38,118 nucleotides of DNA from Deltaproteobacteria bacterium PRO3 (GTDB lineage Bacteria > UBA10199 > DSSB01): assembly GCA_030263375.1 (NCBI GenBank), contig SZOV01000021.1, positions 1 to 38,118 on the forward strand, read 5' to 3'. Of the stretch, positions 1 to 20,500 are shown in pieces. The stretch's first letter is position 1. Every line of letters starts with the position of its first letter. The notes beneath the pieces were generated by a model. The model did not search any database. It saw only the letters and a list, made by a program, of their open reading frames with translations, and was not told where the DNA came from. The position numbers and the translations under genes are program-made.

Positions 1-3000
1 CGCCGGGCGCGGACTCCCAAGGACCTCGAGGCCGTTCAAGCGGACCTCTTCGCGGCGATGCGCGCCGGCGGGGTCATGAACCGCGGCTTCCGCGCCGCCG
101 CGGCGGATTGGAGCTCCGAGCTGGCCGGCCTCGCCGCCACCACCCTCGAGACGGCGGCGCTCGCCGCGGTCTCGGGCGGCGCCGCGGCGGCGGGCAGGGT
201 GCTCCGTTCCCTGCGGGGCCTACGCGCCTTGGAGAGGACGGGCGGCGCGCTTGCGGCGGCAGGGCGCCTGGGCAAGGGCGGCGGGGGCGCTCGGGCCGCG
301 ATGCGCGGGAGCGGCGGTCTGGCGCGGGCGACGCGCGAGATCTTCGATTCGCCCTTCACGCGCGCGGTTTTGATGGGCGGCTATATCTCGCTAGCGGAGA
401 ACACCGGCGCCAAACTCTCCGGCCAGCTAAAGACGGAACCCGACACCGTTCTAGGCTGGTTCAAGGACGCGGTCGCGACCGGCCTCGCGATGGGATTGGT
501 CGCCCCCTTGCAGCCCCACGCCGTTCGGGCCCGCGGGGATCTGTTTCGCCAGATGTGGTCGCGCTACGCCGCCGATCCGCGGCTGGGGCCGCTGCGCCTC
601 GCCGCCGACACCGTTCAGGAGGCCGTCGATGAGGTCCTGGACGCCTACGTCCGTCAAACGCTGGACGGCGACTACCGCGCGATGAGCTGGGAGGAGTTCC
701 GCGACATCGTCTCGGTCTGCGCCTTCGGCGGCGTCCAAATGGGGATGACCAAGCAGCTCATCGGCGGCGGAAGGTCCGAACCCAAGATTTCCCCCCCGCT
801 TGGGGAAGGAGGAAGGGCCGAGCCGAAGCCCCCGCGCCCTTCCCGCGAGCCGGGCCCCCGGGGCGGCGAGGGCCCTCCGAGTGCGCCGAGGCGGGAGAAG
901 CCGGGACTTGAAACGCGGACGCCGGAGCGTCGCTCCGCCGAGGCGGCCCCTCCCGAGCCGGACGTATTCCAAACGCTGAAGGTCGCTTCCGCAGAGGAGA
1001 TCCGAGAGCGGACGCCGAGGCTGGGCGAGATCGCCGATCAAGTCGGGAAGCGTTCAGCGGCCGACTACCTCGCCCTCCCCGCGGTGCGGGGACTCAGCCC
1101 CGGACAGCGCCGAATTGCGGAATCCGCCTTCGCGACCCTGGTCGCACGGACCGCGGGTCATTTTCAGGGCGGGAAGCTGAATAGGCTTGAGAATGACTAT
1201 TTCCGCCGGGCCGCCTTGGCCCAGCACGTCGGCTATCTCGGCGGCGAGCTGGGACGCAAATTTCCCTCCCTCGACGGCGCCCGCGTCAAGGCCATCCTGC
1301 AGCAGCATTTCGAAAATCCCTCCGGCGGGACGGAGGCCCTCGCCGCGAAGCTGCAGGCCGCCGCCGGCGGCGACGCGGAGCTCGGCCGCTTCGTGCGGGA
1401 TGAAAACAAGGCCTGGATGTTCGGCGGTTTCGGCGACTTGGACCATGCCTTGAACCTGCCGGGGGTTTACGCCGGACAAGCCCTGGTGAAATTCGCGACA
1501 GCCCTGGCCGGCGACCGGAAGCGAGGGAAGGCCCTGTTGCAACGCTTCTACGACGCCTCGTCGGAGGACTTGCAAAAGTTGATGGAGAAACCCGAGGGAG
1601 AGCTCGGCCTGCTCGTCCACTTCGCGGCGCGGGCCGCTCAGGCGTCTTGGCTGGTCTCCAAGCTGGGCCAAGGCGGCGTGGAGGCCGCAGTGGGGAAGGA
1701 CGCCAAGGCCTTGTCCCGCTGGACGGGCGACCTGATCGCCCCCTTCGACACGATGGCGGCGAAAAAGGGCTGGGCCGAGGTGGTGAAGGACCTCGACCAG
1801 GCGAGGACCTATTTGCAGCACCGCTTCGGGGACCGCTTCGATCTCCCGCCCAATCAACGCGGGACCCATTTCTTGACCGATCTGGAAGGTCGCCGGAATG
1901 CCGTCGACAAGCTGGTCGAGTCCGGCAAGTTGCGTTGGGTGGACGGACGTCTCGACTTCGTCCATCCGAAGGATCCCAACGAAAAGCTCGTCTTCGGCGG
2001 CGACCTCCCCGACCGGGGTCCGGACTCGGTCAAGCTGGTCCAGTGGCTCGTCGATTTGAAAAAGCGCTACCCGGAGCGCGTCACTCTGCTGTGGGGCAAC
2101 CGCGACTTGAACAAGCTGGGCCTGCTGCGCGACCTGCCGCGGATTCAGTCGGGCAAGGACCCGGACTACCGGGCCTGGTTGGCAAAAAAATTCCCGGAGG
2201 CGGAGTTGGAGAAGCGCTCCGGCGCCCTCGAGCAGCAGGTGGAGTATTGGTTGGAATCGCGCGGCAACCCCGGCGCCCTCGAGCGGCACCGGCTGGAGCT
2301 CGAGGAGCTCACCGACCGCCCCGTATCCCCCGAGGCGGCCGCGCGGGACTTTGTGGACCGCGTCCGCCCGGGCGGCGCCTTTTTCGAATATCTTCGGTTG
2401 GGCCAAATCCTCCACGCCGACAAGAATGTCCTCTACGTCCACGGCGGCGTCACTTCCACGAATCTGGGCGTGGTTCCCGGAAGAACCGAGAAGATCGGCG
2501 ACGCGCGTCGCTGGGTCTCCGAGCTCAACGCCTGGGGCCGGGCTGAATTGGAAAGCATCGAGCGCGCCTACGTCTCGGAGGGGATGGGCGGTACTATCCC
2601 CGGAACGCTGTTGGATTACGGCGACGCGATCTGGGACCCCGACGCCGACGCGGGCGGCGGGCGCCGCGGCGTCGTCTTCATGAACGACCAGAGCGTCATC
2701 TACCCGTTCCGCCAGCTTGAGGACGGCAATTTCCGCGGGCCCTCCCAAGAGGTCCTCGATTACTTCCGCGCGGCGGGCATCGACACCGAGATCAACGGCC
2801 ATTCGCCCTTCGGCGACCTGCCCGGCCCGATCAAGAGCCCGGGGATGTTGCGGGTGATGGCGGATACCTCTTACGGTTCGGAGGAGGCCGGGCACTCGCT
2901 GACCGTGGATGCCATGGGAGGCGTGTGGGTCCACGGCAAGAGCCGCCGCTCCGGGGCGGTGGAGTACCGCGTGTCCGCGGAGAGCCGGCCGCCGGTGGGC

Positions 3001-5607
3001 TATGTGACCGAGGACGGCTTCACGGTGGTCGGCAGCCGGCGCGGTCCCGGCGGCGGCTTCGAGTTTCTCTTGTCCAAGTATTACGACGGCTACCAGATCG
3101 CCGAAAAGGTGCTCACGAAGCGGCAGTTGGAGGAGCTTAATCCCGCTCCCGCGAAGCGCGAGGGGACGGAAGAGACGCATCGCCATCGCGATCTTTTGGT
3201 GAAAAACCTGCGCGCGAAGGGCAAGCGCATCCACACGATGGAGGCGGTCGCCAACGAGCTGGTCGGCGACCGGACCCCGGTGCTGGTGTCCGGCGCCTCC
3301 AAGTTCGGACAATACCCCGCCTCCGCGGAGACGGTGGAACGCGAGACGAGCCGTCTGTTGGACGAACTCGATCCCGAAAAGACCGTGTTGATCACCGGCG
3401 GCACGGACCACGGCGTGGAGGCGGTCGTCCACAAGCTGGCGCGGGAGCGGGGCTTCCGCGTCGTCGGCTTCATCCAGGAGGGCGCCATCCCGGGCGAGAT
3501 TGAGCTGGTCGACGACCTGGTGTTCGCGGGGGCCCGCAATCAATGGGTGGATCCGTTGCTCGCCGCGCTCAACCTGGTGAAGGCCAAACAGGGCCTGGCG
3601 CTCTTCGTCGGCGGCGGCGGGACGGTGAAAGAAGGGATCCTCGCCGCCGAGGCCGCGGGCGTCGACTTCTACTTGATGGCGAAGGCCGAGGGTACGGAGG
3701 GCGGCGGCGCCTCGGGCGAGTTGGCGGCGCGTTTCCCGGAGCGGAGCTTCCGCGGCGCGACGGACCTGCGCGGCAGGGCGGAGCGCGGCGGTCGGAAGAT
3801 CTTTCGCGGCGGCGCAGCGGAGGCCGAGGGTGCTGTCACGGGGTCCGGAGCTGAGCTGATTGCGGCGCTTACCTTCGGGCCGGAACTGCAGCGGCTGGCG
3901 AAGGGCCGATCCGGGCTTCAAGAAAATCCATTGCGGCTCTTGAACGCATTCCTGCGGGGCGACCTGGGCCGCGAGCCGACCCGCCACGAGGTGGAGGAAC
4001 TGGCGGAGCAAGCTCGGGAACGGTTAAGCGCAACCGACTGCGCTCGGATCGTCAGCGACCCTGAGACGGGACCGCCGGTCTTCCAGGTCTACACCCGAGA
4101 ATTCCTCGACGCGATGGCGACTTACATTCTCAAGCAGGCGGAGGCCTTCCGCAGGACCCACGGTCACGAGCCGCGGGTGGCGGAGATCGTCGCCGGCGAC
4201 GGACGACTGAGCCGGGCCCTCAACCGGCGACTGGCCGGCTTTGGCCTACGCATCCAACCCTCCGACCTCAAGGGTGAAAACGAATGGGGCATCGTCTTCG
4301 ACGAGTCGGTCGAGACGAAAGATGCGGTGGCCGCCGCTCGTGATGCGGACATCGTCGTCGCCGGTTGGATCTTCTGCGACAACACCTTCGACGTCGAGCT
4401 CGCGCGCGTCGTCGAGGAGGACCCGGCGAAGACGCTCATTTTCATCGGCGAGGGCAGATTAGGCGCGGCCGGTACCTTTGAGTTCTGGGAATTCGTGCGC
4501 GACAGAAAGATGCGGGAGGAGTTCGTGGAAGGCCTCAATATTTCCGGGGAAGGTGAGCCGATCGCCCAATCACGGCTCTCCTTTACGGATCTCGCCGACC
4601 GCAGCCAGGTGCAGGTGATCCGTTCGAATCGCGGCGAGGCCGTCTTGGATATGGCGCCTTCCGAAGTCCGGGACTTCGCCGCGACGGAGCGGGCCGGAAC
4701 GGCGACCAAGACGCTGCCGAGCGGCGAGCATTGGGAGATCGTCCGAGAAGACACGGAGGAATCGGGAGAGACCTTCCGGACGGCGCGGGCGAAGGACTAC
4801 GATCCCCGGAGCGACACGAAAGCCTCTCTGGAGGGCAACCTCTACGAGGTCTTCGTCAACCTTCCCGAACTGGCGCGGCGCTGGGGGATTCGCGCGAACC
4901 CCGACGGTACGGTCCGTTATCCCGAACTCGAGGGGCTCAATCGGCGCCTGAAAGCCGAGGCTTACGGTTTCCGCTTCTGGGAGCCCACCGACGCGGAGAC
5001 CAATGCCGAGGGGGAGGCGGAGCTTCTCCCCTACCTGGAGCATATGACCCGGGATCCGATGGAATTTCCCTGGTCGGGAAAGGGCCCCCATCACTTTCAC
5101 GACATCGTGGCCCACGGCTTGGGCTACGCCGCTCTGCCCAAGACCGTGATGAGGCAAATTCGAGCGACCTCGCTTGCCTATCGGGAGCTTTTGACGCATC
5201 CGGATTTTCAAGAGCCCCGTCTGCAGGGTCGTATCAAACGGTTGGCTCAGGACTTCGTGGATCACGTCGACGCCATGACCGCATTGTTGACCGACAGGTA
5301 TTTGCGCCTGGTGCACGAGGAGACAAGGCGGCCCGGCGAGACCCGCGAGGACATCTGTGCCGAAATCGAGGCCTCATTATTGGGACTGGCCGATCAGTCC
5401 GTCGCGGAGGTGCTGGAGACCGCCGGGCGCCACTTGGACACGAAGTACCCGCAGGGCAAACGCGCCCTGCTGCGGCTGCGAAAAATGGAGGCGCGGGCGA
5501 TGGTGGAGGAAGCGGGTTGGGAAGAAGCCAAGTCCGAGGCGGTGGCCGGGACCCTGTTGGCGCAGAGCCTCGCCCAGATGGGCTTGGAGCCGGAAGTGGG
5601 TAAATGA
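1..5607 (+). CDS. Giant multi-domain protein (PPP-like phosphoesterase, SLOG-like and methyltransferase-like domains), 5' truncated by window edge
   Basis: The reading frame is open from base 1. An ATG lies at 58, but homology to the 5337-residue giant at 11510 already starts before it (LFAAM at base 46), so the gene begins outside the window. Residues are counted from base 1. About 15-257 is an Ala/Gly-rich helical module shared with that giant. A Pro/Arg/Gly-rich linker follows at 258-320, then a helical region of no known family. A PPP-like metallophosphoesterase spans about 620-950: D627, GDLPDRG with D668 and D671, GNRD at 699-702 (normally GNHD/E), H814 and H934. A SLOG/LOG-like Rossmann domain spans about 1094-1250, with GGGGT at 1204-1208 and E1211. 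A methyltransferase-like Rossmann fold starts near 1390. The C-terminal third has a His cluster (HHFHD, then AHGLGY) near 1700 and belongs to no family I recognise. No signal peptide is visible within the window. The domain set suggests a multi-enzyme effector or conflict protein, but that is inference. Confidence 0.85.
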   Translation, partial: RRARTPKDLEAVQADLFAAMRAGGVMNRGFRAAAADWSSELAGLAATTLETAALAAVSGGAAAAGRVLRSLRGLRALERTGGALAAAGRLGKGGGGARAAMRGSGGLARATREIFDSPFTRAVLMGGYISLAENTGAKLSGQLKTEPDTVLGWFKDAVATGLAMGLVAPLQPHAVRARGDLFRQMWSRYAADPRLGPLRLAADTVQEAVDEVLDAYVRQTLDGDYRAMSWEEFRDIVSVCAFGGVQMGMTKQLIGGGRSEPKISPPLGEGGRAEPKPPRPSREPGPRGGEGPPSAPRREKPGLETRTPERRSAEAAPPEPDVFQTLKVASAEEIRERTPRLGEIADQVGKRSAADYLALPAVRGLSPGQRRIAESAFATLVARTAGHFQGGKLNRLENDYFRRAALAQHVGYLGGELGRKFPSLDGARVKAILQQHFENPSGGTEALAAKLQAAAGGDAELGRFVRDENKAWMFGGFGDLDHALNLPGVYAGQALVKFATALAGDRKRGKALLQRFYDASSEDLQKLMEKPEGELGLLVHFAARAAQASWLVSKLGQGGVEAAVGKDAKALSRWTGDLIAPFDTMAAKKGWAEVVKDLDQARTYLQHRFGDRFDLPPNQRGTHFLTDLEGRRNAVDKLVESGKLRWVDGRLDFVHPKDPNEKLVFGGDLPDRGPDSVKLVQWLVDLKKRYPERVTLLWGNRDLNKLGLLRDLPRIQSGKDPDYRAWLAKKFPEAELEKRSGALEQQVEYWLESRGNPGALERHRLELEELTDRPVSPEAAARDFVDRVRPGGAFFEYLRLGQILHADKNVLYVHGGVTSTNLGVVPGRTEKIGDARRWVSELNAWGRAELESIERAYVSEGMGGTIPGTLLDYGDAIWDPDADAGGGRRGVVFMNDQSVIYPFRQLEDGNFRGPSQEVLDYFRAAGIDTEINGHSPFGDLPGPIKSPGMLRVMADTSYGSEEAGHSLTVDAMGGVWVHGKSRRSGAVEYRVSAESRPPVGYVTEDGFTVVGSRRGPGGGFEFLLSKYYDGYQIAEKVLTKRQLEELNPAPAKREGTEETHRHRDLLVKNLRAKGKRIHTMEAVANELVGDRTPVLVSGASKFGQYPASAETVERETSRLLDELDPEKTVLITGGTDHGVEAVVHKLARERGFRVVGFIQEGAIPGEIELVDDLVFAGARNQWVDPLLAALNLVKAKQGLALFVGGGGTVKEGILAAEAAGVDFYLMAKAEGTEGGGASGELAARFPERSFRGATDLRGRAERGGRKIFRGGAAEAEGAVTGSGAELIAALTFGPELQRLAKGRSGLQENPLRLLNAFLRGDLGREPTRHEVEELAEQARERLSATDCARIVSDPETGPPVFQVYTREFLDAMATYILKQAEAFRRTHGHEPRVAEIVAGDGRLSRALNRRLAGFGLRIQPSDLKGENEWGIVFDESVETKDAVAAARDADIVVAGWIFCDNTFDVELARVVEEDPAKTLIFIGEGRLGAAGTFEFWEFVRDRKMREEFVEGLNISGEGEPIAQSRLSFTDLADRSQVQVIRSNRGEAVLDMAPSEVRDFAATERAGTATKTLPSGEHWEIVREDTEESGETFRTARAKDYDPRSDTKASLEGNLYEVFVNLPELARRWGIRANPDGTVRYPELEGLNRRLKAEAYGFRFWEPTDAETNAEGEAELLPYLEHMTRDPMEFPWSGKGPHHFHDIVAHGLGYAALPKTVMRQIRATSLAYRELLTHPDFQEPRLQGRIKRLAQDFVDHVDAMTALLTDRYLRLVHEETRRPGETREDICAEIEASLLGLADQSVAEVLETAGRHLDTKYPQGKRALLRLRKMEARAMVEEAGWEEAKSEAVAGTLLAQSLAQMGLEPEVGK

Positions 5608-5623
5608 TCTCCGGAACCCAATC

Positions 5624-6364
5624 CTAAAAATGAAATTCTCGGGGACCCTGCTTCGGCTCGACGCTCTCAAATGGCATGCCGACACCCCAACTGAAAGGTC
5701 CGGGAGACGCCGGCAGGCAGGAGAAATTCGCCGCGCCCGTTCCGGGGGCGGGGCAGTCTTGCAGGGATTGCAGCCCGGTCGGCGCGTAGCCGGGGCTGTA
5801 ATTCAAATAAAAAAGCCAGTATTCGAAGTTGGCCGGCCCTTCGGGTTGGGCGCTGCCGGGAAATTCCGCATGGAAGGCAAAGCGGCCGTCCGCTTGGGCG
5901 TCGATCGGAGTCTCCACAAACTTCATCCGCTTGAGGTCGATCGCGCGCAGGATCAGGCCTTCCTGGCAGGGTCGGGCGGCATGGGCCGACGCCTGACATT
6001 GGAGGGTGCCCGTGACTCGAATGCCCTTCAGGCTGGCCTCGACCGGGCCGGCGAAGACCTTCTGCTCGTATTCCTCGATCTTGGGAAAGATGTAGAAGTG
6101 GAACTTCTTGTCCTCGGGCGTGACGTCGGGACCGGGGTTTCCCGCCGGGAAGCCGGGCGCGGCTTGGTAGGCAAAAGCCGTCTCGCCACCGCCTTCGCCG
6201 CCGGCGCCGTTGACGGGTTGGGCGGCGGTCGGCGCCGAGGCCGGCGCGGCCGGCATCGCGGGCGCGTCCAGGGATCCGCCGCCACCGGCGGGGCCGCCCG
6301 AGGGGGCGAGACCGCCGCAGGCGACGACCCAGGCGCTAAATAAAAATGGAAGTAGCCTTTTCAA
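5624..6364 (-). CDS. Predicted lipoprotein, 246 aa, unknown function
   Basis: The N-terminus is a short basic start, a hydrophobic stretch and the lipobox VVAC, then a Gly/Pro/Ala-rich tether, as expected for a signal peptidase II lipoprotein. The start codon is TTG at 6364-6362, supported by GGGAG seven bases upstream and by the exact fit of the signal peptide; no ATG fits. The mature part carries Cys pairs (CQASAHAARPC; DC about 14 residues before the next Cys) and may be a small beta-rich domain. I recognise no family. It lies 56 bp downstream of another exported-protein gene on the same strand and converges on the giant gene, whose stop is 16 bp away. Function is unknown; export and lipidation are well supported. 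Confidence 0.8.
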   Translation of the reverse strand: MKRLLPFLFSAWVVACGGLAPSGGPAGGGGSLDAPAMPAAPASAPTAAQPVNGAGGEGGGETAFAYQAAPGFPAGNPGPDVTPEDKKFHFYIFPKIEEYEQKVFAGPVEASLKGIRVTGTLQCQASAHAARPCQEGLILRAIDLKRMKFVETPIDAQADGRFAFHAEFPGSAQPEGPANFEYWLFYLNYSPGYAPTGLQSLQDCPAPGTGAANFSCLPASPGPFSWGVGMPFESVEPKQGPREFHF

Positions 6365-6420: not shown

Positions 6421-6981
6421 TCAATCCCCCCTCGACTTGGGGAGCAGCCCCGGGTCCACCGCCTTGAAGGTCCCCGGTGCCTTGTCTTGATCCCCAATAT
6501 TGACGCGGGGATAGCAGGCCTGCTGCACCTTGGCCGCCAATGCCGGTTTAGCGGCGAGTAGGTCCTGGGTCAGGATGGCCTGGGCCTCGGCGTAGGAGCA
6601 GACATAGACGCCGGCAAGCGGAGGATTTCCGGTGTAATCATCGCATTTCGTCAGCGGGATGCACTCCGTCATCGCCTGCAGCATCGCCCGGGCGATCGTC
6701 CAGTCTTGGCATTCCCCGAAGGCCTGACGGCAGTAGGGGCCGCTCTTGGCGAGGGCGAAATGAGGGCCGGGGACGCATTGTTTCCAAAAGGCGTCCTTCA
6801 GCTCATCGGGGACGAAGAGGTCCTCCTCGTCGAAGCTGCTTTGATATTCCAGGGCCGGACGAAACAGATAGACCGCTTTTTGCGAGGGAAAGGTGCAAGG
6901 CTCCGCCTTCAGGTGGGGGGTCAGGGCGAACGAGACAAGGATGAGAAACCCGAAGAGGGCCCGTCCAGGCGCCGATGCCAT
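6421..6981 (-). CDS. Exported Cys-containing protein, 186 aa, unknown function
   Basis: A Sec signal peptide of about 26 residues (hydrophobic core FGFLILVSFAL, likely cleavage after LKA) precedes a mature domain with eight cysteines. The ATG is preceded by GGAGG at good spacing. A helical segment, CQDWTIARAMLQAMTEC, with Cys near both ends resembles the Cys-flanked helix of the paralogous proteins at 8638 and 9388, so it may be a distant member of that family; this is tentative. It is the first gene of a probable two-gene minus-strand unit with the lipoprotein at 5624. It is divergent from the sigma-54 promoter of the 7284 gene, with a 302-bp intergenic region between them. Confidence 0.8.
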   Translation of the reverse strand: MASAPGRALFGFLILVSFALTPHLKAEPCTFPSQKAVYLFRPALEYQSSFDEEDLFVPDELKDAFWKQCVPGPHFALAKSGPYCRQAFGECQDWTIARAMLQAMTECIPLTKCDDYTGNPPLAGVYVCSYAEAQAILTQDLLAAKPALAAKVQQACYPRVNIGDQDKAPGTFKAVDPGLLPKSRGD

Positions 6982-7050: not shown

Positions 7051-7104
7051 AAATACGCGGGCTTGTCGCGCGATGAGCGGCGGGGAAATATCCCGATTCA
7101 ATTT

Positions 7105-7148
7105 TTATAAAATTATAAATATGCACAAATTTATTTATAAAATTATAA
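7105..7148. promoter_or_regulatory. Paired TTATAAAATTATAA boxes (putative enhancer/UAS)
   Basis: Two exact copies of TTATAAAATTATAA lie at 7105-7118 and 7135-7148, 30 bp start to start. Each contains two self-complementary TTATAA hexamers separated by AA. The downstream copy ends 65 bp before the GG of the -24 element at 7214. The same arrangement is found at 10801-10846 upstream of the next sigma-54 promoter, which argues for a specific activator-binding site rather than chance AT-richness in an otherwise very GC-rich locus. The most likely binder is a sigma-54 enhancer-binding protein. Confidence 0.65.
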
Positions 7149-7212
7149 TTATTTCCTCAGGCCTGCAAATATAACTATCGACAATTACAAAGTTTTTTAA
7201 AACACCCCTCCT

Positions 7213-7228
7213 TGGCACTCCTCTTGCT
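7213..7228 (+). promoter_or_regulatory. Sigma-54 (-24/-12) promoter
   Basis: TGGCAC then five bases then TTGCT gives the invariant GG (7214-7215), exactly 10 bases, then GC (7226-7227). This is a near-consensus RpoN promoter. Transcription should start near 7239, leaving a leader of about 45 nt before the ATG at 7284. It probably drives the 7284-10753 cluster. Confidence 0.8.
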
Positions 7229-7283
7229 TTTGGTATTCCGCGGAGCCACGAGCTCCTTTGGAATTCAAATTCGGAGGATCGCC

Positions 7284-8612
7284 ATGACCCAGACCGTTTC
7301 CCAGCCTAAAGCCAACGCCCTCAACCAAGACCCCGCCACGTCCGTCGACGAACTGTATTACGGCGAGGATTACGATTTCACCCTGGAAGAGGAGGCCCCG
7401 GCCGAGGAGAGCTCCTTTCAGATGCAGCCGACCGGGCTGACCGTCGACCAACTGCGCGGGCGCCTGAGCAGCCTCGTCGCCATGGTCGAGCAGAGCGATC
7501 TCACCGAGGAAAGCAAGTCCGCGCTGCTCCGCGAGATCCAAGTCGTTCAAAGTCAGATCAATTTCGCCCAATCCTTGAGCCCGGCGCAGCGCGACGCGGA
7601 ATTTTCCCGTCTCTACCTGCAGATCGGCCAGATCGAGTCGAAGTTCGCCGCCGGCGGCGCGGTCGACGCGGCGGGCGGGTCGGAGGACGTCGAGGGCGGC
7701 ACCGACGTGGCCTCTTTGCAGAAGCGCCGCGACGAGTGCCGGAAGCAGATCGACAAGCTCGAGGCCAAGGGTTGGATCACCGAGGAGCTGCACGAAAAAT
7801 TGAGCGCCAAGCTCGACCGCGTCTCCGACCTGGTCTCGGACCCGGACTTCGCCGAGGAGGCCGCCGCGCTGATCGAGGAGCTCGAGGGCAACATCGACGG
7901 GGTCAAGCAGATGTACGTCGAGGAAGGCGAGGCCGTCGAGGCCCTGGAGGGCGAGTCCGCCGAGGTGAAGGACGGCTCCCTGAAGGCCCTCTTGCAAATG
8001 GCCGGCGTGAGCGAGGAACAGGCCATGGCGGCCTTCAAGGCGGCCTTCCCCGGCAGCGAGATTTCCTCGGCCAAGGACCTCGCCAAGGCCATCGAGAAGG
8101 AGGAGGCCCCCTTCACCGCGCCGCCCAGCGCCGAGGTCATCAAATTTCTCGAGGGGATCGACGCCGAGTTCGCCCAGTCGGTCGCCAGCGCCAACCGTTG
8201 GGAGAAGACGGTGCTCGGCTCGAATTTGCAGAAGGCCGCCTCGCGTCTGACCGCGCTGCTGACGGCCTTGTACGGCAACGACCACATTATCCGCGTCACT
8301 CAGCCCGAGACCCAGAACGGTTATGAAGATTGGCGCCTGCTCAACGAGATCACCTTCGACGGCACCAGCTATTCCTTCACCCGCGAGGAGAAAGGCCAGA
8401 CGACCCGCGTCGCCTGGGAGGTGCTCGACGCCAACAGCAAGCCGGCGCCCGCCAAGCAGGGCGGCTCGGGCAAGGGCGGCCTACCCGACGTCCCGAGCGT
8501 ACCAGGCCCCGGGGACGAGATCGCCAACAAGGGGAAGGATCTGGTCGAGGACGGCATCGACGCGGGCACCGGCGCGGTGGACGACTTCGGCGACGCCACG
8601 GGTCTTTGGTGA
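7284..8612 (+). CDS. Acidic coiled-coil protein, 442 aa, unknown function
   Basis: The start is the ATG at 7284, preceded by GGAGG at 7273-7277. In-frame codons upstream would lie within the sigma-54 promoter and are rejected. The protein has no signal peptide. It has a strongly acidic N-terminus (DYDFTLEEEAPAEE), long charged helices likely to form coiled coils (about residues 50-110 and 140-240), a compact domain near 290-380, and a Gly/Asp-rich tail ending in GDATGLW. It has one cysteine. I recognise no family. It is first in a probable sigma-54-driven unit with the two 10-Cys proteins and the 9974 gene. A structural or secreted component of the same system is plausible but not shown. Confidence 0.85.
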   Translation: MTQTVSQPKANALNQDPATSVDELYYGEDYDFTLEEEAPAEESSFQMQPTGLTVDQLRGRLSSLVAMVEQSDLTEESKSALLREIQVVQSQINFAQSLSPAQRDAEFSRLYLQIGQIESKFAAGGAVDAAGGSEDVEGGTDVASLQKRRDECRKQIDKLEAKGWITEELHEKLSAKLDRVSDLVSDPDFAEEAAALIEELEGNIDGVKQMYVEEGEAVEALEGESAEVKDGSLKALLQMAGVSEEQAMAAFKAAFPGSEISSAKDLAKAIEKEEAPFTAPPSAEVIKFLEGIDAEFAQSVASANRWEKTVLGSNLQKAASRLTALLTALYGNDHIIRVTQPETQNGYEDWRLLNEITFDGTSYSFTREEKGQTTRVAWEVLDANSKPAPAKQGGSGKGGLPDVPSVPGPGDEIANKGKDLVEDGIDAGTGAVDDFGDATGLW

Positions 8613-8637
8613 TTCTTTTCAGACAAGGAGGATCGTT

Positions 8638-9249
8638 ATGAAAAGGAACTATGGAAACAAAATCATTTTATCGGGTTTGTGCCTGCTTCTTCTCTCCGCG
8701 TGCAGCGGCGGGACGGGCGGCTCCTTCGAGGCGCCCAGGGTCGACGCGAACCAGGATTCGGGCCTGGACTTGGGAGGAAAGCTGCCGACGGCACCGGCCC
8801 CCGACGGAGCATTGCCGCCGCAGCCGAGCGAGGCGCCGCAAGAGGAGGGGGTGGACGCGAAATTTCCGGCGCCATTGACGGGGAGTCCTGCAGGCGAAGC
8901 GGCCCTTTGCACGAGCGCCTGCCGGGAACAGGGAAAGCAGTGCGTGGTTTCGGGTCTCGAGGAAGACTCCGTCGCCGACTCCGTCGTGGTCTCGACCTGC
9001 GCCGACAAGGCCGTGGCTTGCGCCGACCAATGTCAAGGCGGGAAGGCGACCTGCGCCGACTTGGCCGAGATGCAGAGGGTCGTTTTCAACCAGTTCTGTC
9101 AAATCCAGGCCGCGGGAGATTCCAACAAGCTGATCGCCTGCGCCATCGGCTACAAGGTAAAGGTGGACGCCTTCAAAGCGAGCTGCGTCCAGGCTCAAGC
9201 GATGGAGCATTTCATCGAATCCCAGGAGAAACCCCTGCCCAATCTATAG
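8638..9249 (+). CDS. Predicted 10-Cys lipoprotein, 203 aa
   Basis: The ATG at 8638 follows AAGGAGG at 8625-8631. The N-terminus is basic, then hydrophobic (LCLLLLSAC); the lipobox LSAC places the lipidated Cys at residue 22. A Pro/Ala/Gly tether precedes a C-terminal domain with ten cysteines in the order C-x3-C-x6-C-xn-C-x6-C-x3-C-x6-C-x14-C-x13-C-x14-C. The protein encoded at 9388 has the same ten with almost identical spacing, so the two are paralogs. The pattern suggests a disulfide-bonded helical bundle outside the cytoplasm. The gene lies 25 bp after the 7284 gene and is followed by a stem-loop that is duplicated after its paralog. The family is not one I can name. Confidence 0.88.
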   Translation: MKRNYGNKIILSGLCLLLLSACSGGTGGSFEAPRVDANQDSGLDLGGKLPTAPAPDGALPPQPSEAPQEEGVDAKFPAPLTGSPAGEAALCTSACREQGKQCVVSGLEEDSVADSVVVSTCADKAVACADQCQGGKATCADLAEMQRVVFNQFCQIQAAGDSNKLIACAIGYKVKVDAFKASCVQAQAMEHFIESQEKPLPNL

Positions 9250-9268
9250 GATAGCGGAACCAACCCTG

Positions 9269-9307
9269 CCTTGGGCGCCGGCCTCGCCGCCGCCCAAGGC
9301 CAATTTT
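9269..9307 (+). terminator. Stem-loop, copy 1 (terminator-like or intercistronic)
   Basis: CCTTGGGCG (9269-9277) pairs with CGCCCAAGG (9291-9299), with an inner CGGC/GCCG extension. After CCAA comes a TTTTT run at 9303-9307. The T-run is offset by four bases, so termination may be partial, leaving downstream genes expressed at a lower level. A near-copy lies at 9922-9961. Confidence 0.65.
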
Positions 9308-9387
9308 TAAGAAAAAAACTCCTAGGTGCCCGGCGCAGGAATCTCGGTTGCCGGGCGAGGAGAAACGATAAGAAGGAGGGTAATAAA

Positions 9388-9906
9388 ATGAAACGGTCGA
9401 ATTTCCATCTGGTATTTTGGACTCTCTTAACGTGCTTTGCACCTCTCGCGGTTGAGGCGAATCCGGCGATGCCCGTCCCGGCTAACCTTCAAAACGTAAA
9501 GATGCAGCCCCATTTCGGTTGGGTGCTTGGTTGCATCGATAAATGCGAAAGCTTCTCGGCGTCTTGCCTAAAAGTCCCCCCTGGGGCCGAGTCGCCTCCG
9601 CCCGACTATACCCATGTGCCGGGAATCGCGCAGACGCTTGACTGCGCCGAAGCGCGCGTTTCCTGCCTTCGAAAATGGTGCAGCGAACCGGTTTCGTGTC
9701 AATTCTTGGCCGAGGCCTACCTGGATACGCTGCTGGATTCCTGCAAAATTCAAACCGCGGTGTTGGGAGAATTGTCTTACGATTGTTTCGGAAACGCCCC
9801 CGCCACAAAGGAAATTTTCCTGAATCAATGCATCGACGAATCCCGGGAAAATGAGATCAGGCAGCCGGTAAGGAACGAGACAAGGCGATTGAATCGTAGC
9901 GAATAG
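9388..9906 (+). CDS. Exported 10-Cys protein, 172 aa, paralog of the 8638 product
   Basis: The ATG at 9388 has GGAGG at 9375-9379. A Sec signal peptide (hydrophobic VFWTLLTCFAPLAV, probable cleavage after VEA near residue 24) precedes a domain carrying the ten cysteines of the 8638 protein: x3, x6, variable, x6, x4, x5, x14, x13 and x14 between them. CQFLAEAYLDTLLDSC aligns with the corresponding CADLAEMQRVVFNQFC. Unlike its paralog it has no lipobox, so it is probably released into the periplasm or secreted. The gene plus its downstream stem-loop look like a tandem duplicate of the upstream gene plus stem-loop. Confidence 0.87.
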   Translation: MKRSNFHLVFWTLLTCFAPLAVEANPAMPVPANLQNVKMQPHFGWVLGCIDKCESFSASCLKVPPGAESPPPDYTHVPGIAQTLDCAEARVSCLRKWCSEPVSCQFLAEAYLDTLLDSCKIQTAVLGELSYDCFGNAPATKEIFLNQCIDESRENEIRQPVRNETRRLNRSE

Positions 9907-9921
9907 GATCCTCGGACCCTG

Positions 9922-9961
9922 CCTTGGGCGACGGCCTTTCCGGCGCCCAAGGCCAATTTTT
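9922..9961 (+). terminator. Stem-loop, copy 2 (terminator-like or intercistronic)
   Basis: CCTTGGGCG (9922-9930) pairs with CGCCCAAGG (9944-9952), followed by CCAATTTTT. It shares the flanking ACCCTG before the stem and the CCAATTTTT tail with the copy at 9269, so the whole unit was duplicated. The ribosome-binding site of the next gene (AGGAG, 9962-9966) abuts the T-run, so the hairpin might also modulate its translation. Confidence 0.65.
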
Positions 9962-9973
9962 AGGAGCGTGAAC

Positions 9974-10753
9974 ATGTCGCTACCCAACACCCCCACTCCG
10001 CGGTTCGGAGTATTTTTGGAAGACAGCGGAAACGTCGCCGGGACCATCGATCTTCAGGACAAACTGCGAATCGGCGAGTTCAACACGGATCAGGTTCGAG
10101 AGATGAGCGTCGAGGATTTCCTCAAGCGAGGCTCTCCGGGGTTTTCAAGCCTGTCCCCGGCGCAGCGCCTCAAGAAGCTGGAGGAGCTGTTCGCGAAAGG
10201 CTCCATTGTCCAGGGAGCCCGGCCGAGACTGGCGCCGGAGGTGCGAAAGGCGGCGGCGGACGCCGAGACCGATCGGCGTCTCGCGGTAGAACGCGAGCGG
10301 CTCGGCGGCGATTTTCAGGCGCTGCATCGAGACTGGGAGTCCTACTACTCCGACCTAGAGAAGGCCGGTCGGGAGACTCCGGAGCTCAAGCTGCGCGAAG
10401 CGCGCCTCGAGGCGAGGACGGCCGAGTTACACCGGCGCTCCGAGACCCTGGGCCTCCGCGAAAAGCAGGAGGCCTTGGTGTACGGGCTCGAGGAACTCTT
10501 GGGGGCCGATCTCGACAGTCGCTCTCTGCGAATTCAGCAGCTTTCCCCGAACACTCTTCGGGTCGCCGCCGGCGATGCCACTAGAAAGGGGCTTGTTTAT
10601 TTCGTCGACGTCCATGCCCCAGCAGGGGGCTCCTGCACCACCCTGAGGACGCCCGTTCCGGGACCGGAGGGAGAGCCAAGGCATGGTCGGGCGATGTGTC
10701 TCGAGCCGGAGACCTTCGCCGCCTTTCGGGCGGTGAAAGACGGAGCTCGCTGA
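9974..10753 (+). CDS. Hypothetical helical protein, 259 aa
   Basis: The ATG at 9974 sits seven bases after AGGAG (9962-9966). A GTG at 9968 is too close to that site and is rejected. The N-terminal 60 residues contain IDLQDKLRIG, then MSVEDFLKRG and a Ser/Leu/Lys-rich helix; a similar order occurs in the 10988 product (see findings). The centre (about 90-165) is a highly charged coiled-coil region. The last about 90 residues form a small domain with CTT and MCLE cysteines. No signal peptide and no recognised family. It is last in the 7284 cluster and is followed by the regulatory region of the giant gene. Confidence 0.8.
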   Translation: MSLPNTPTPRFGVFLEDSGNVAGTIDLQDKLRIGEFNTDQVREMSVEDFLKRGSPGFSSLSPAQRLKKLEELFAKGSIVQGARPRLAPEVRKAAADAETDRRLAVERERLGGDFQALHRDWESYYSDLEKAGRETPELKLREARLEARTAELHRRSETLGLREKQEALVYGLEELLGADLDSRSLRIQQLSPNTLRVAAGDATRKGLVYFVDVHAPAGGSCTTLRTPVPGPEGEPRHGRAMCLEPETFAAFRAVKDGAR

Positions 10754-11509: not shown

Positions 11510-14500
11510 ATGCCGAAGGAACTGACATCCCAACACCTGCGCGAGATGGGCTTTCACGAGTTAGCCTTATTTCACGAACATGGGGCCAGAGCCGAGGCGG
11601 AGGCACGCGATCCTCCGACGCCGGACATTTTACGCCCAATGGAGACAAGCCCCTTTGGGTCGGCGAACGAAAGTCCCCAAGCCTCCGTTTCCGATCCGAA
11701 CGCCGAGCTGCGTAGGCTTCTCGGGCCCTTAGTATCCCCTTTGCTTCGGGACGCGAGGGGGAGCTTCGACCCGGGCAAGGTCCATGCCAATAATTTCGAA
11801 GAGTTTCGCGATTGGCTTTTGGACCAAGTCTCCGTCGACGGCATCGCCTTCAATCAAAGCCTCCTCGCCTCCTACCACCAAGTCCTGGGCAAGGCCGAGC
11901 ACGAGCCGCTCCTGCGACGGCTCTGGGCGGAGGGCAGGGGAGAAAAGACGGAGGACCCTCCGCCGGCGGCCCTGCGGCGTTTGACGGCCGACCTGATCGC
12001 CGTCTCGGCCGAGCGCTTCGTCTCCTCCCACTTGAACGACCGGGAGGGCAGGAGAAGGCTGCGCGGCATTCTGGGCGATCCCGCGCAGTACAGTCGCGAG
12101 ATCCGGGCCGACCTGAGCAAGGCCATCGCCGCGGTAGGCGAACGGCAAGGGATCGGCGGTCTCTACGCGCACCAATCCGAAAAACAGATCTCATCGTGGA
12201 ATTATTTCAACTGGGGCGTGAGCGACGCCGAGCTTCGGGAGGCCGGACGCCTCGCCGAGGAAATCCTGACCGTCGCCGACGAGCAGGAGGCGCGGATCCA
12301 AGGTGCGGGGACCCAATACCACGATCACCCCGAGCGGGTGCGCGCGCTCGTGTCCAAGGAAAGGACGATTAAGCCCGAGGAGATCCGCGGTATTGCGCGA
12401 ATCGAGGCGGCGCATCGCGAAAAGGCCGATCCCCTATCCCAACTCCGGACCCGATTGGCGCGCTTCTGGCTTTTGGCGGCGGATTCCGACAACTGGCGGG
12501 TCGATAACGCCTACTCCGGCCCTACCCATCGCCTGTATCTGATGGCCGAGACCGAGCGCCTGCTTTCGCTGACCGAAAACGTCCGCGACGAGGCGGGCCT
12601 GCGCTGGCTCAACGGGCGGGTCCAGGAATTCTTGGCGGCGCCGCTGCCGGCGAAGCCCGGCTCGGACTTCGGACCCCTCGCCGAGGCCTGGAGATGGCTG
12701 GAGCATAAGACCGTCGGTCGGGGCCTGGAGGAATTGTTTGAGGCCGTGCCGGAGGGGCACAAAAGCCCCTATCTTCAATTAAAAGAGCTCTCGCATACCT
12801 GGAAGCACTCCGTCGCCATGGGCGAGACGCTGCTCCCGGAGGTGAAGATCCCGCCGCCGCTCGAAGGAGAGGAGGTCCAGGGAGATTCGGCGGAGCTGCG
12901 GCGGGCGGTCTCTCACCTTTCCTCGGAGCTGCACAAGACCAAGCATCAGTTTTGGTACCAGTACAAGCAGCACAAGGCCCTGTCGCGCGGGGCCTCGAAT
13001 GTGGCGAGCTGGTTCGGCGCGGGGGACATCGAGGATATCCGCGAGGCCAACCGCTGGATCGACGATTGCCTGCGGCGGTTGGCCGGGGTTCGCGCGAAGG
13101 AAGACCTGGAGGAGGAGCTGAAGGGACTGTACCGCGAGCTGAAAAAGGACGGCAGGCTCTTCGCCGCGATGGAGGCCGCGGAAATGGAAGGGACCGAGCA
13201 GCTGATCGGACTGATCCAAACGGTGGCGGAGATCGCCGCGATCTCGTTGGTCACCCAGGGGATGGGCACCGCCGGAGCGATCGCCAATGCGGCGCGGGCC
13301 GGTCGCGCGATGCAAGGCGCGCTTCAGACCGCGGCCGGCGCGCGCCGTATCGGCCAGGGGGCGGAGGCCCTGGCGTGGGCCTCTAAGGCGGAATACGGGA
13401 TGAAGATGGGGATGGCGATCTCCGCCACCGAGAACGCGGTGGCGTTCGGCACGGGCGAGGTCCGGCAGGGACCCGAGACCCTGCTCGCCTGGGGCAAGGA
13501 CAGCCTTACGACCGGCGCGGCGATGAGCCTGTTCGGCCCGCTGTCGATGGGCGGCGGCTCCGCGCAAGTCTCGCGCAACCTCGGCAAGGAGCTGTTCCAC
13601 CGCTATGCCCAGCAAGGCGCGAAAGGCCTGGGCCACTTGGCCAAGGACACGGCGGCGGAGACGGGGGAGGAGCTCTTCGACGCCCAACTGCGCCAGGGCC
13701 TTGACGGCCATCATCGGGCCCTCGGCGCCGATCAGATCCGCGAGATCACCTTGGTCAGCGGCTTCGGCGGGGCGCAGATGGGGGCGCTGAATCACGGCTT
13801 TCGGATACTTCAGCAGAAAGCGGATATTACGATTGCGAATTCCCGGAAGGATAGCGCGGAGGATCCCGAAGCCGCCGCGCCGCAAGCCTTCTCTGCGGCT
13901 GGGAGGCAGCTTCTCCTCGCCCCGATGTGGATGTTCCTCGGCGCGGGTGGCCCGGGCGGCCTGCCGCCGGGCCGCGGTGAGACGGCCTTGGGAAAAGCGC
14001 CGGATACCGAAAGCCACGCCAAACGCCTCGCCGCCGTCCATGCTCGTTTGGAGCCGGTCTTCGCCAAGGTCGGCGAGCCGCTGACCCTCCGCGATCTGCT
14101 CTTGGCCGGCCAAGTAACCGCCGAGATGAGCCTCAAGAACACGGCGCTGTCGATGGAAGAGAGCCTGCGAATCGTCTACGCCGACCGCTTTGCCAACGAG
14201 GAAATGCGGGAAGAAGTACAAAAAATCATTCGGAAGGGCGTGGAGCAGGAAGAGTCGAGGGATGAGGCCGACCGGATCCAAGGGGAGGCGTTGTCGTCGA
14301 AATATCTTCTGGCCCAACTTTCCTCTTGGAATCCTCGCCTCACGGACGGATCAAGAAACGAAGATCCCATTATTTTCCACATTCCGGGTCCGGAGAGCCT
14401 GGTTTTCGCGCCCTCCACCTTCAAGGCGGTGCAAGGACTAGCGGCGGGTATCTTGACGCGAACTCCAGTTTATTTGCTGGGCGAGACGGGCACCGGGAAG

Positions 14501-17500
14501 AACGCGATGCTGCGGTACTTGGCCTGTCGGACCGGAACGCCGCTGATCCGCATCAATTTCAACCGCGAGACCGACGCCTCCCAGCTTTTCGGGCACCTCG
14601 AAATCGAGCGGGACGAGCAAGGCAATCGCCGCGTCGTGCTGCGCGACGGCAGGATGATCCGGGCGATGCGGCACGGCGCCTGGGTCGTCTGGGACGAGGC
14701 GAATCTCGCTTCCGAGGCCTTCCTGGTCGCGCAGAACGACCTCATCCAGCAGATCCAGACAGGTAAAGTGACGGTTCGCCAGGGCGGCAAGTTGGTCGCG
14801 ATCGACGTCCATCCGCATTTTCGCCTGTTCGCCACCGGCAACCCCGAGGGCTACGCGGGGCGCAAGGCCACGGAGCGCAGCTTCGGCAACCGTTGGCTGA
14901 AGATTTTCGTCCAGCCCATGTCGGTGGAGGAGCAGCAGGCCTTCTTGGCGACGGAGTACAAGGAATTAAGTCCGGAGAGTGCGGAAGTTATTCCGGCGGC
15001 CTTGCATGCTTTAAAACTGGTCTTGGGCGGAGAGAAAATAACGATCCGTACCCTCAAGCTGGTAGCGGGGAGGATTCAGGAGATGGAATCGGAAAGCCTA
15101 TGGGAGAGGGGGGACGCCGCGGCCTCTCCTCAACTCACGCCTCAAGGCATGCGCGCCTGTCTTTCCGCGATCGAGGCCGAGGTCCTCGACGGGCTGAATG
15201 GCGAAGATTATCAAAAGGCCGTTCAGGCCTTGGCCCAGGTCTTGCCGCGAGGGACCTATGAAATCAAAGACTATGTCTCCCAGCCTCCAAGCCGCGAAGA
15301 GTTCGAGGCGAAGGTCGGCGAATACGCGGGACTCTTGGACCGTGGCGGACAGGAAAAAAACCAAGGCAGGGAGCAGAAGGAAGACCGGGAAGAACCCGAG
15401 GCCCAGGAACATGAAGCGCGGGACTGGGGCGAGTTCGTTCCCGTCCCGACCTTCCTCAAGTACGCCGCCAAGGCCCTCGACTCCCTGATCCGCGGCGACC
15501 ACCTGCTGATCGAGGGGCCGCCCGCCACCTCCAAGTCCTCCTTCATGCGCCTGATCGGACGGCTCTCCGGCCAAGAGGTGATCGAGGCGACGGGTTCCGC
15601 CGACCATTCCAGCGCCGACATGATCGGGATGCCCGCTTTGGACGAAGCAGGCCTCCTGATCTTCGAGGAGGGGTATTTCCTCAAGGCCCTGAAGGAAGGC
15701 GCCATCCTGGTGATCAACGAGGCCAACTTGATACCGGCCGAGGTCCTGGAGCGGCTCAACTCGGTCTTTGACGACGACCGGATGATCGTGGTGAGCGAGA
15801 ACGGACATGAGGCGCCGGTGAAGGCGCATCCAAACTTCCGGCTGATCCTCACGCAGAACCCGGCAGGGATGAACGGCGGTCGCAAGCGCCACTCGCCCGC
15901 GCTGGAGAACAAGTTCCGCAAGATATTTATCCGGGACGCCATCTCCCAAGAAGAACTCACCCTCCTCGCCCGCGAGAGTTTCCCCGCCCTAGCCCCCGCC
16001 GCCGGCGAGATGGCGCGCTTTCATCAGGAGGCGGCACGGACTTTTACCGGCGCGGGAGTCCAACTTACTCTTCGCGATCTAGGACATTGGGGCCTGATCG
16101 CCGCAGCCTTGGCCCAAAGCGGAACACTGCGGCCTCACGAAGCCTTGCTGCTCGGCGCTGAGCTGGCCTACTTGAGTCGCAGCGCAGATCCCGATCTCCG
16201 CGAGAAGCTGCAACCGGAAATGTCCCGATTGGCCGCCGATCTCTCGGGCAAGACATTCCCAAGGGAGGATGTGCAGGAGGAGGCTGACCCCGTCCGTCAA
16301 ACCATCCGCCGCATTCTTGCGGATCCCGAGGTCGAGAATCTCCAAGCCGTCTACATGCATTTTGCCGCCTTGCAAGGTATGAACTTCGAATCCTGGCTGC
16401 CGCGGGTGCTCAGGGAGCTGCCAGAGCGGGAATTTGAGGAAGTTTTGACCGCCCTCCAACCCATGAAACCCGAAGATGAATTGCGACTGTTGAAAGAATC
16501 GAAGAACCACGCGGCTCGAACGCGGCTCCTGAAAATGCTGGAGGAGGCGGATCGAGGCATTTGCGTGGATGTCGCGAGATTCTTGATTCATATGTTTCCA
16601 AGCGATGGCGAAGTTGGAAGCGCTCTACGAGCCAGGATGCTGGGCTATTTGGAAGAGCATGGATACGACGCGGGTGGGGCCGAGTATGCGGTAAGTATAT
16701 TGGGCACCGTGGGTCGAGGCGACAAAAAAATCAAGCAAATCCTTTTGGAGATGCTGTCAGACATTGATTGTGGCGTCCCAGAAGGTTGGATTGCTGATGC
16801 CTTGGGGAACTTGGGCATTGCCGATGACGGCGTTGAAAACGGCCTTCGTAACATAATAGATCGCGATCATGGAATTTCGGGATTCATCGCGGTTCAAGCT
16901 TTGGTCAAGTTAGGACTTGCTGACGAGGGAGAAACTCGTCAATTCCTCTTCGAATTTATATCGAACGAGGGGGATTATTGGGACTTTGGCGAAGCGCGCC
17001 GAGGCGCATGGAAGCTTCTGGATGACTTGGGAATTGCCGACGAGGAGGCGAGAGAACGGCTGCGCATGGTGGTAGTGAATCAGCGGGTGGAAATAGTAGA
17101 CCGATTTGCCGCCGTATCCCGGCTCGACAAATTGGGGAGGGACGGCGAATTCGTCCGGGATGCGGTCCTCTCGATGGCGAACGACCTTCTCTCGGAGATG
17201 AGAGATGCCGATTCAAGAGTACGCGAATCGGCCATAACCGGTTGTCGCCACACTTTCCTCGTCAAGGCTGTTCAACAAGGTCCCATCGCCGAGGCCCTTC
17301 AACAGGGCCTTTTGGAGAGGCTTCACGACGAAAAGGAGTCCATACGATTTGAAGCCGCCACGTCATTGGTTGCATTGGGGCTGGGCCTAGAAGCGGTCGA
17401 AGCATGGCTGGCCGATCAATTCTCCCGCCAGAAGAACTGGACCGATAAGCTCAAAGCCGCGGAGATGTTGTTTCGTCTCGGACGGGGCGAGGAGATAAGA

Positions 17501-20500
17501 GAGGAGGTTTTCCGAAATTGGCGTGAGTACCCATACTATGTTTTCCGGTTATGGTCCGAGTTCGGTATGGCGGACGAGCGGTTCCAAAGCGTCCTTATCG
17601 AAGCCCTCAAGGAGGACGAGACGGCAAGCGCCGCGGAAAGATTCTTGGATCAAGTTTTCCCGGGCTGGGATCGGGAGGTCCAGCAGGAGTTCCGCAAATA
17701 TAATAAGATCCTCGCCCAAGAGCTCTCCCGCAAACAGTCCGAAGTCGTCGAAGGGCAGGGCGTCGCGTTGGCCGAAGTCGAGCGTGGCCTCCCGAAGTGG
17801 CAGGCGAAGGGGCGCGAGGCGGAGGGGCTTGCGGCGTATATACCTGGCGAAGCCGAGTTGTTTATCGGAGGATCCACCGCCCAGGCCCTGCAAGGCATGG
17901 TCGGGGGAATCCTTGCACGGCTTCCGGTCTACCTGATGGGCGAGACGGGGACGGGGAAGAACGCGATGCTGCGGTACTTGGCGCATCAAACCGGCACGCC
18001 GCTTTTGCGGATCAACTTCAACCGCGAGACGGACGCCTCCCAGCTCTACGGCCATTTCGAGATCGAGCGCGACGCCCAAGGCCGACGCCGCGTCGTGCTG
18101 CGTGACGGCAAGATGGTTCAGGCGATGAGGCACGGCGCCTGGGTCATCTGGGACGAGGCGAATCTCGCTTCCGAATCCTTCCTAGTCGCGCAGAACGATC
18201 TCATTCAGCAAATCCAGACAGGACGAGTGACCGTCCGCCAGGGCGGGAAGCTCGTCACCATCGATGTCCATCCGCATTTTAGACTATTCGCCACCGGCAA
18301 CCCCGAGGGCTATGCGGGGCGCAAGGCCACCGAGCGCAGCTTCGGCAACCGCTGGCTGAAGATCTTTGTCCGGCCCATGTCGGTTGAGGAGCAGCAGGCC
18401 TTCTTGGCGACGGAGTACAAAGATTTAAGCCCGGAGAGCGCGGAGTCCCTGCCCGCGCTCTTGCATACCTTGAAGATCATCCTAGGCGGGGAGCGGGTGA
18501 CGCTGCGGACCTTGAAGCGGGTGGCGGTGCGGATTGCGGAGGCGGAAGGGAAGGGAAAAGACCTTTGGGAGGGCCCGGCCACCCTTTGGGTTTCTGCAGG
18601 GGAGGGCAGGCACGGGGGCCTGCCCCTACAGTTGTCGGCATCGGGGATGGAGGCCTATGTCGCGGCCCTCGAGGCGGAGGTCTTGGATGGGTTGAACGGG
18701 GAGGACTACGCCAAGGCCGTCCAGGCCTTGGCGCAGGCGCTGCCTCGCGGAGAGCAGGCCGTCTCGGATTACTTGAATCGACCGGCGAGGGCCGAGGAGT
18801 TTTTTGCGGAGGCGGAGAGGTACCGCGGTGTCGCCGGGGCCCTTCCCGAAGGGCCCCTACGGCGCGACCCCCACTGGGAGGACCTGGTGCCGGTGCCGAC
18901 GACCGTCAAATACGCGCGGAAGGTCCTCGACTCCTTCCGGCGCGGCGACCACGTCCTGATCGAGGGCCCGCCGGCCCTCTCCAAGTCGGCGATCCCGAAG
19001 TGGCTGGGTAAACTCCTCCATCAACCGGTGATCGAGGTGACCGGCTCGCCGGACCACAGCGCCTCGGAAATGATCGGGATGCCTAGTTTGGACGAGGCGG
19101 GTAATCTGATCTTCCAAGAGGGGTATTTTCTCAAAGCGCTCCAAGAAGGCGCCATCCTGATCCTCAACGAGGCGAACCTGATCCCGGCGGAGGTCCTGGA
19201 GCGCCTCAACTCGGTCTTCGACGACGACAAGATGATCGTGGTCAGCGAGAACGGCCGCGAGGCGCCGGTGAAGGCACACCCCAAGTTCCGGCTGGTCCTG
19301 ACGCAGAACCCGGCGGGGATGAACGGCGGCCGCAAGCGCCACTCGCCCGCCCTGGAGAACAAGTTCCGCAAGATATTTATCCGCGACGCGTTCTCGCAGG
19401 AAGAGCTCATTCTCATCTCCCGCAAGAACTTCCCGGCCCTGTCCACGGCTGCCGAGGAGATGGCGCGCTTTCATCAGGAAACGGCACGGACTTTTGCCGG
19501 TGCGGGAATCCACCTCACCCTGCGCGATCTAAGGCATTGGGGCCTGATCGCCACGGCTTTTACCCAAGCCGGAACGCTGCCGCCTCACGAAGCCTTGTTG
19601 CTCGGCGCCGAGCTGGCCTACTTGAGTCGCAGCCCGGATCCCGATCTCCGCGAGAAGCTGCAACCCGAAATATCCCGATTGGCCGCCGATCTCACGGGCA
19701 AAAATTTCTCAAGGAAGGATTTTCAGGCGGATCCTTCGACCGCTCCTTTAAGGGAAAAAATTAAAAAAATACTCGAAGACCCGAAAAGGACCAGCGTGCA
19801 GGAGGTTTATGAAACCTTCGCCCGGGAGAAACTCTGCGGTTTGGACGTGCTGCTCGCCAAAGCCCTTCCTCGGGACGAAAAGGTGATAACGGAGATTTTG
19901 TCGCATTTATCTTGGCCTCACTGGGTAAAAGCCGAGTGGATCGAGCGATTCCAGATCAAATCGGGTTTCGCCTTTTTAGAGCAACTCTTAGCGGGTGACC
20001 CATACCTCGATCCGATTTATCAGGATTCCGCAAGAAGCGCCGCGGCCAGGGCGCTGGGCGGACTGGGCGATGAACGGGCGTTCCCGCTCTTGGCGCGGAC
20101 TCTGGGTGATAAGAAGGATTCCGTAAAAAGCGCCGCGATCGAGGCCCTGGGCACACTGGGTGACGTGCGCGCATTCCCCGATTTGGAAAAGATCTTAAGC
20201 GACTTGACCCGTTATTATCGCCCCTACCGGGTATCGGCGGCCAAGGCTCTGGGCAAGCTGAGGGATAAACGCGCGATCCCTATTTTGAAACGAGCCTTGA
20301 AAGATGACAATTTGGATGTCCGAGCCGCCGCCGCCGAGGCCTTGGGAGAGTTGGGTCACAAACGCTCGTTCCTGCTCCTGGAACGGGCATTGGAGGATAA
20401 GTTTGCTTTCGTAATCATGCGAAGATCCGTTGTCCGCGCCTTCGGCAAACTAGGGGACACCCGCGCGATCTGGAGATTAGAACGCGTCTTAGAAAATAAA

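Follow-up and report, generated by a model that had tools for sequence, protein, structure and literature searches.

The analysed window, 38,118 nt on contig C21 of a 3.55-Mb draft genome, contains two adjacent genes, here called P0001 and P0002, which we read as ancient tandem paralogues. Their products would share an exported domain of two consecutive disulfide-stapled helical hairpins, produced both anchored and free and used as a binding module, and the stem-loop behind each gene would act within a common operon. Taken jointly, we regard this reading as about evenly balanced between right and wrong.

P0001 (positions 8638 to 9249, 203 amino acids) and P0002 (9388 to 9906, 172 amino acids) lie on the plus strand, each with a good ribosome-binding site (AAGGAGG). 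Both neighbours on either side are co-directional. The upstream gene (7284 to 8612, plus strand) encodes 442 amino acids with no signal peptide seen, ends 25 nt before P0001 and is likely the first gene of a transcription unit with the pair, while the downstream gene (9974 to 10753, plus strand) encodes an orphan protein of 259 amino acids. An AT-rich intergenic stretch between divergent genes at 7080 to 7260 carries promoter-like sites on both strands and is likely the promoter region of the gene run from 7284 to 9974.

Inspection of the P0001 N terminus by eye suggests a lipoprotein signal, MKRNYGNKIILSGLCLLLLSAC followed by S, in which the lipobox (LSAC followed by S) has Cys at +1. About 67 residues of linker, with a high content of P, A, G, D, and E, separate the lipobox from a 10-Cys domain (8908 to 9186, plus strand; Cys 91 to 183) for which four helices are predicted. 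P0002 reads as an ordinary signal-peptide protein (AEA followed by N) and has its 10-Cys domain at 9532 to 9831 (plus strand; Cys 49 to 148) and a charged, arginine-rich tail. The Cys spacing is 3,6,18,6,3,6,14,13,14 in P0001 and 3,6,25,6,4,5,14,13,14 in P0002. Both open reading frames were thus recovered with the features that a first-pass annotation had described, namely, ten Cys at near-identical spacing, an otherwise mostly diverged sequence (9 of 56 pinned non-Cys positions are identical) and, judged from the signal sequences, one copy that appears to be lipidated and one that does not.

The global alignment of the two domains scored higher than 4,998 of 5,000 shuffles. When the Cys were kept in place and the remaining residues alone were shuffled, 343 of 5,000 scored as well as the real alignment, and the evidence for homology is therefore mostly the Cys framework. 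Short local motifs are also common to both proteins (CA[DE]..V.C, LAE, and C.IQ.A), and together with the adjacency of the genes these sequence features support homology. A chance convergence of two unrelated proteins on a like Cys spacing would agree with the low identity elsewhere and with the Cys-fixed shuffles, but it would have to account for spacings that agree over about 95 residues, for adjacent genes, for common motifs, and for matching 3' hairpins, and we consider it very unlikely.

The Cys of each domain are arranged in mirror symmetry. If Cys 1-6, 2-5, and 3-4 are paired in the first half and 7-10 and 8-9 in the second, the sums of the paired residue numbers are exactly constant in P0001 (223,223,223 / 322,322) and constant within 1 in P0002 (147,146,146 / 252,252), while in the other groupings tested the sums were off by 18 or more. 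Random placement gave such mirror sums in 47 of 200,000 trials for P0001 (0.024%) and 317 of 200,000 for P0002 (0.16%), probabilities that are somewhat optimistic because the grouping was picked once spacing and helix prediction were known; permuted spacings gave 0.5% for each protein. The P0002 sums are no independent test of those in P0001 if the two are homologous, and the case for symmetry is made from two sequences of the domain. Constant sums mark helical hairpins whose helices are stapled by nested disulfides, as in solved alpha-hairpinins, five of which (quoted in PMC7191063) obey the same sum rule exactly. The bonds proposed from this pairing are C91-C132, C95-C128, C102-C121, C139-C183, and C154-C168 in P0001 and C49-C98, C53-C93, C60-C86, C104-C148, and C119-C133 in P0002. 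The genome also encodes a disulfide oxidant of the VKOR family, which would fit the formation of such bonds in the envelope.

AlphaFold2 models were built for both proteins from two-sequence alignments, i.e., at low depth. The best model of the P0001 domain (pLDDT 76, pTM 0.66) has helices at 2-21/30-47 and 54-73/77-101, with the five models differing widely in confidence, from 76 down to 47, and the P0002 model (pLDDT 67, pTM 0.60) has helices at 19-37/56-73 and 80-102/107-134. In both proteins, the turn centers implied by the Cys sums fall in loops of the four-helix models. A Foldseek comparison of the models with the PDB returned nothing significant and no solved analogue. The structure prediction that had been suggested as a check thus produced four helices in both proteins, but at low depth and with uneven confidence, and the earlier idea of one fold in both copies is made concrete by the mirror ladder and the models without being proven by them. 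We regard a fold of two disulfide-stapled helical hairpins as half-supported.

The same helices would also suit a thiol-rich four-helix metal binder resembling exported copper storage proteins (Csp), in which the Cys face inward and ligate Cu(I) or a different soft metal rather than form disulfides. The Cys at i,i+4,i+11 and at i,i+15 lie on the same face of a helix, and periplasmic Csp with Cys-lined four-helix bundles are known (PMC12510493, PMC9484137); the likeness would lie in small four-helix proteins with many helix Cys, some of them exported. However, the domain matched no Csp at E<=1 in Pfam or NCBIfam, no Csp was among the Foldseek matches listed for the low-depth models, and no metal-handling gene was recognized in the neighborhood. 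The exact mirror spacing and the even number of Cys are what stapled hairpins need, and the Sec-type export signals and the VKOR protein favor oxidation. We therefore judge metal binding by free thiols unlikely and retain the stapled hairpins.

Searches for relatives covered several kinds of collection. Pfam, NCBIfam, PHROGs, PADLOC, and PDB sequences gave no convincing match to the domain; weak single matches to Dna2_Rift, SslE, and a PHROGs scaffolding protein (E=0.013) were judged to be chance. A profile of the pair, the search that had been proposed earlier, matched only the two proteins themselves in 46 genomes of the phylum, and within the order it found no relative. P0001 had no match in the genus or in plasmids. 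Peptide-pattern scans of genome contig and viral contig collections, narrower in that they reach only relatives keeping the chosen peptides, found no relative, and neither did a DNA pattern for the Cys spacing among the matches listed from the genome contig collection, whose open frames were Cys-rich repeats or otherwise implausible. Where related genomes carry paralogues of the giant downstream gene, and on the contig that has an upstream-gene homologue, other Cys-rich exported open reading frames exist, none with this pattern. The pair is real, specific, and apparently undescribed, and the suggestion that the family is new holds for the databases searched.

Several further features of the neighborhood were recorded. 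The gene at 7284-8612 has a distant match in one relative (L014, G006:C229; positions 3562-5898, minus strand), where the homologue adjoins a second open reading frame with a similar acidic N terminus, possibly another family member. Downstream of the pair, positions 11510-27523 form a single open reading frame of 5337 amino acids that is laid out like eukaryotic midasin/Rea1, with six AAA_5 (dynein-related) modules followed up by HEAT repeats and, at the C terminus, a VWA domain. Relatives of its N-terminal part occur elsewhere in this genome (C57) as well as in G001-G003 and G006, and the N terminus of a 1849-amino-acid open reading frame at 58-5607, with a metallophosphoesterase and an SLOG-like region, matches part of the midasin-like frame. 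On the minus strand, at 6421-6981, p3 encodes an orphan exported Cys-rich protein, and the 8 Cys that follow its signal peptide include three nested pairs whose sums are almost constant (197,197,198; about 2% by chance, post hoc). As a third paralogue of the pair p3 was rejected, since profile comparison gave a probability of 1% and no homology was demonstrable.

Each gene is followed by a stem-loop. Hairpin 1 (9263 to 9312, plus strand) has a perfect 10-bp lower stem, GCCTTGGGCG/CGCCCAAGGC, a 1x1 mismatch, and an apical stem, followed by CAATTTTT; hairpin 2 (9916 to 9965, plus strand) is identical to it at 45 of 50 nt (90%). Both fold far better than shuffled sequences (z = -5.1 and -3.5, respectively). 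Of the five differences, four are in the apex; the two copies agree throughout the lower stem and in the flanks ACCCT and CAATTTTT, and at the 1x1 position both have a mismatch (C-C and A-G). The sequence occurs in only two copies in the genome, both at P0001/P0002; four other loose stem matches all lack the T tail, and 45 relatives gave only weak matches, E 0.05 or worse. The near-identical hairpin with the same tail after each gene, as first noticed, is therefore specific to the pair, and a dispersed repeat element, named at the outset as the finding that would undo the association, was rejected on these counts.

What was not supported as stated is the idea that gene and stem-loop were duplicated together in a single event. 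Over 56 codons at non-Cys positions in equal-length, Cys-pinned blocks, nucleotide identity between the genes is 32, 32, and 36% at codon positions 1, 2, and 3, with 28% expected by chance at position 3; the coding DNA is near saturation. Since the hairpins are 90% identical, including their unpaired flanks, they and the genes have not diverged in step, and a 50-nt stretch this well preserved cannot have drifted alongside the genes. The data from one genome fit three explanations alike: later copying of the hairpin from one site to the other, homogenization, and a sequence-specific constraint that holds it.

The hairpins could also be ordinary intrinsic terminators that make each gene its own transcription unit, with their identity due to recent local copying of a terminator. 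Like rho-independent terminators, they are strong GC-rich stems (-28.2 and -25.9 kcal/mol) placed directly after a stop codon and followed by TTTTT, and a 3-nt spacer need not prevent efficient termination at a hairpin with a T run. In contrast to the usual form, a CAA spacer separates the stem from the T run, which begins 3 nt past it and has five T only, and approximate terminator d scores are -22 and -32. The conservation of primary sequence also exceeds what terminator structure alone needs. Because only 20 nt lie between the stem of hairpin 2 and the start of the next gene (whose ATG at 9974 comes 12 nt after the end of the T run) and a scan for sigma-70-like sites found no promoter-like site between 8600 and 9974, the nearest upstream one on the same strand being at 7122-7149, we prefer, with modest confidence, intra-operon elements over two complete terminators. 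Termination after each gene is nonetheless quite possible, if somewhat short of an even chance.

We also considered a cassette-like unit in which, as in integron arrays, each gene carries a 3' palindrome that is a recombination site and is shared for that reason. The order gene-palindrome-gene-palindrome in one orientation fits such a unit, and the arms CTTGGGC/GCCCAAG are one base from attC core words. The attC core consensus is RYYYAAC/GTTRRRY; by inspection these words are absent, the similar words here standing in inside-out order and without the invariant GTT/AAC of that consensus. No integron integrase scored above the curated cutoff in the genome, the palindrome exists in two copies only, and the first gene belongs to a gene run with 25-nt spacing. 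An integron attC cassette was rejected, and we consider cassette-like origin extremely improbable.

In the reading that we prefer, both domains would fold oxidatively in the envelope, H1 and H2 being stapled by three nested disulfides (1-6, 2-5, and 3-4) and H3 and H4 by two (7-10 and 8-9), so that each domain would consist of two consecutive antiparallel helical hairpins. P0001 would be lipid-tethered at the end of its flexible acidic linker of about 67 residues, and P0002 would be released as a soluble protein; our guess is that both serve as a rigid binding module that resists proteases, one form being anchored and the other free. The stem-loops inside the co-directional gene run would most likely act on the shared transcript, as intercistronic elements for 3' processing or stabilization or for partial termination, and would be kept near-identical by homogenization or sequence constraint. 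Only tentatively do we propose the full combination of an undescribed bacterial extracytoplasmic domain with two tandem disulfide-laddered helical hairpins, an anchored/free pair, and RNA hairpins kept near-identical by homogenization or by sequence-specific RNA-level control coupling both genes. Near-saturated genes next to 3' hairpins of 90% identity offer a clean, testable case of a noncoding element outlasting or overwriting gene divergence. If the Cys ladder is right, five nested disulfides brace the helical hairpins of this compact bacterial scaffold; such a topology is known best from peptides of plants and proteins of mitochondria, to which the domain shows no sequence relationship.

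Among the mitochondrial proteins, CHCH/twin-CX9C and small Tim proteins are helical hairpins closed by nested disulfides after translocation and are imported via MIA40. P0001 and P0002 would resemble them in nested disulfides formed after translocation, but their Cys follow CX3CX6C...CX6CX3C and CX14C...CX14C instead of twin CX9C or twin CX3C, and export is by a bacterial signal peptide. Membership in the CHCH/twin-CX9C group was rejected, as two CX9C motifs are absent (3,6,...,14,13,14) and Pfam gave no match. Copper storage proteins are similar in helix count and Cys content, yet no family match appeared in Pfam or NCBIfam and no fold match among those listed for the low-depth models, and the mirror spacing suits disulfides. 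The alpha-hairpinins, plant defense peptides, consist of an antiparallel helix pair with nested disulfides Cys1-Cys4 and Cys2-Cys3 and constant pair sums, and are defined by a CX3C...CX3C motif, one per helix (PMC7191063). Here, the observed spacing (CX3CX6C...CX6CX3(4)C in hairpin 1 and CX14C...CX14C in hairpin 2) contains the twin CX3C only in part, which excludes membership by that definition, and no sequence similarity was shown. The proteins further differ in having two tandem hairpins with three plus two staples over about 95 residues and in being bacterial. The first motif nevertheless also begins CX3C, the sums are constant as the alpha-hairpinin rule demands, and the predicted helices match it. 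With alpha-hairpinins and similar animal helical-hairpin toxins, P0001 and P0002 would thus share, given the proposed pairing, a helix pair with nested disulfides and constant sums, and it is plausible that their domain is a new variant of the disulfide-stapled helical hairpin.
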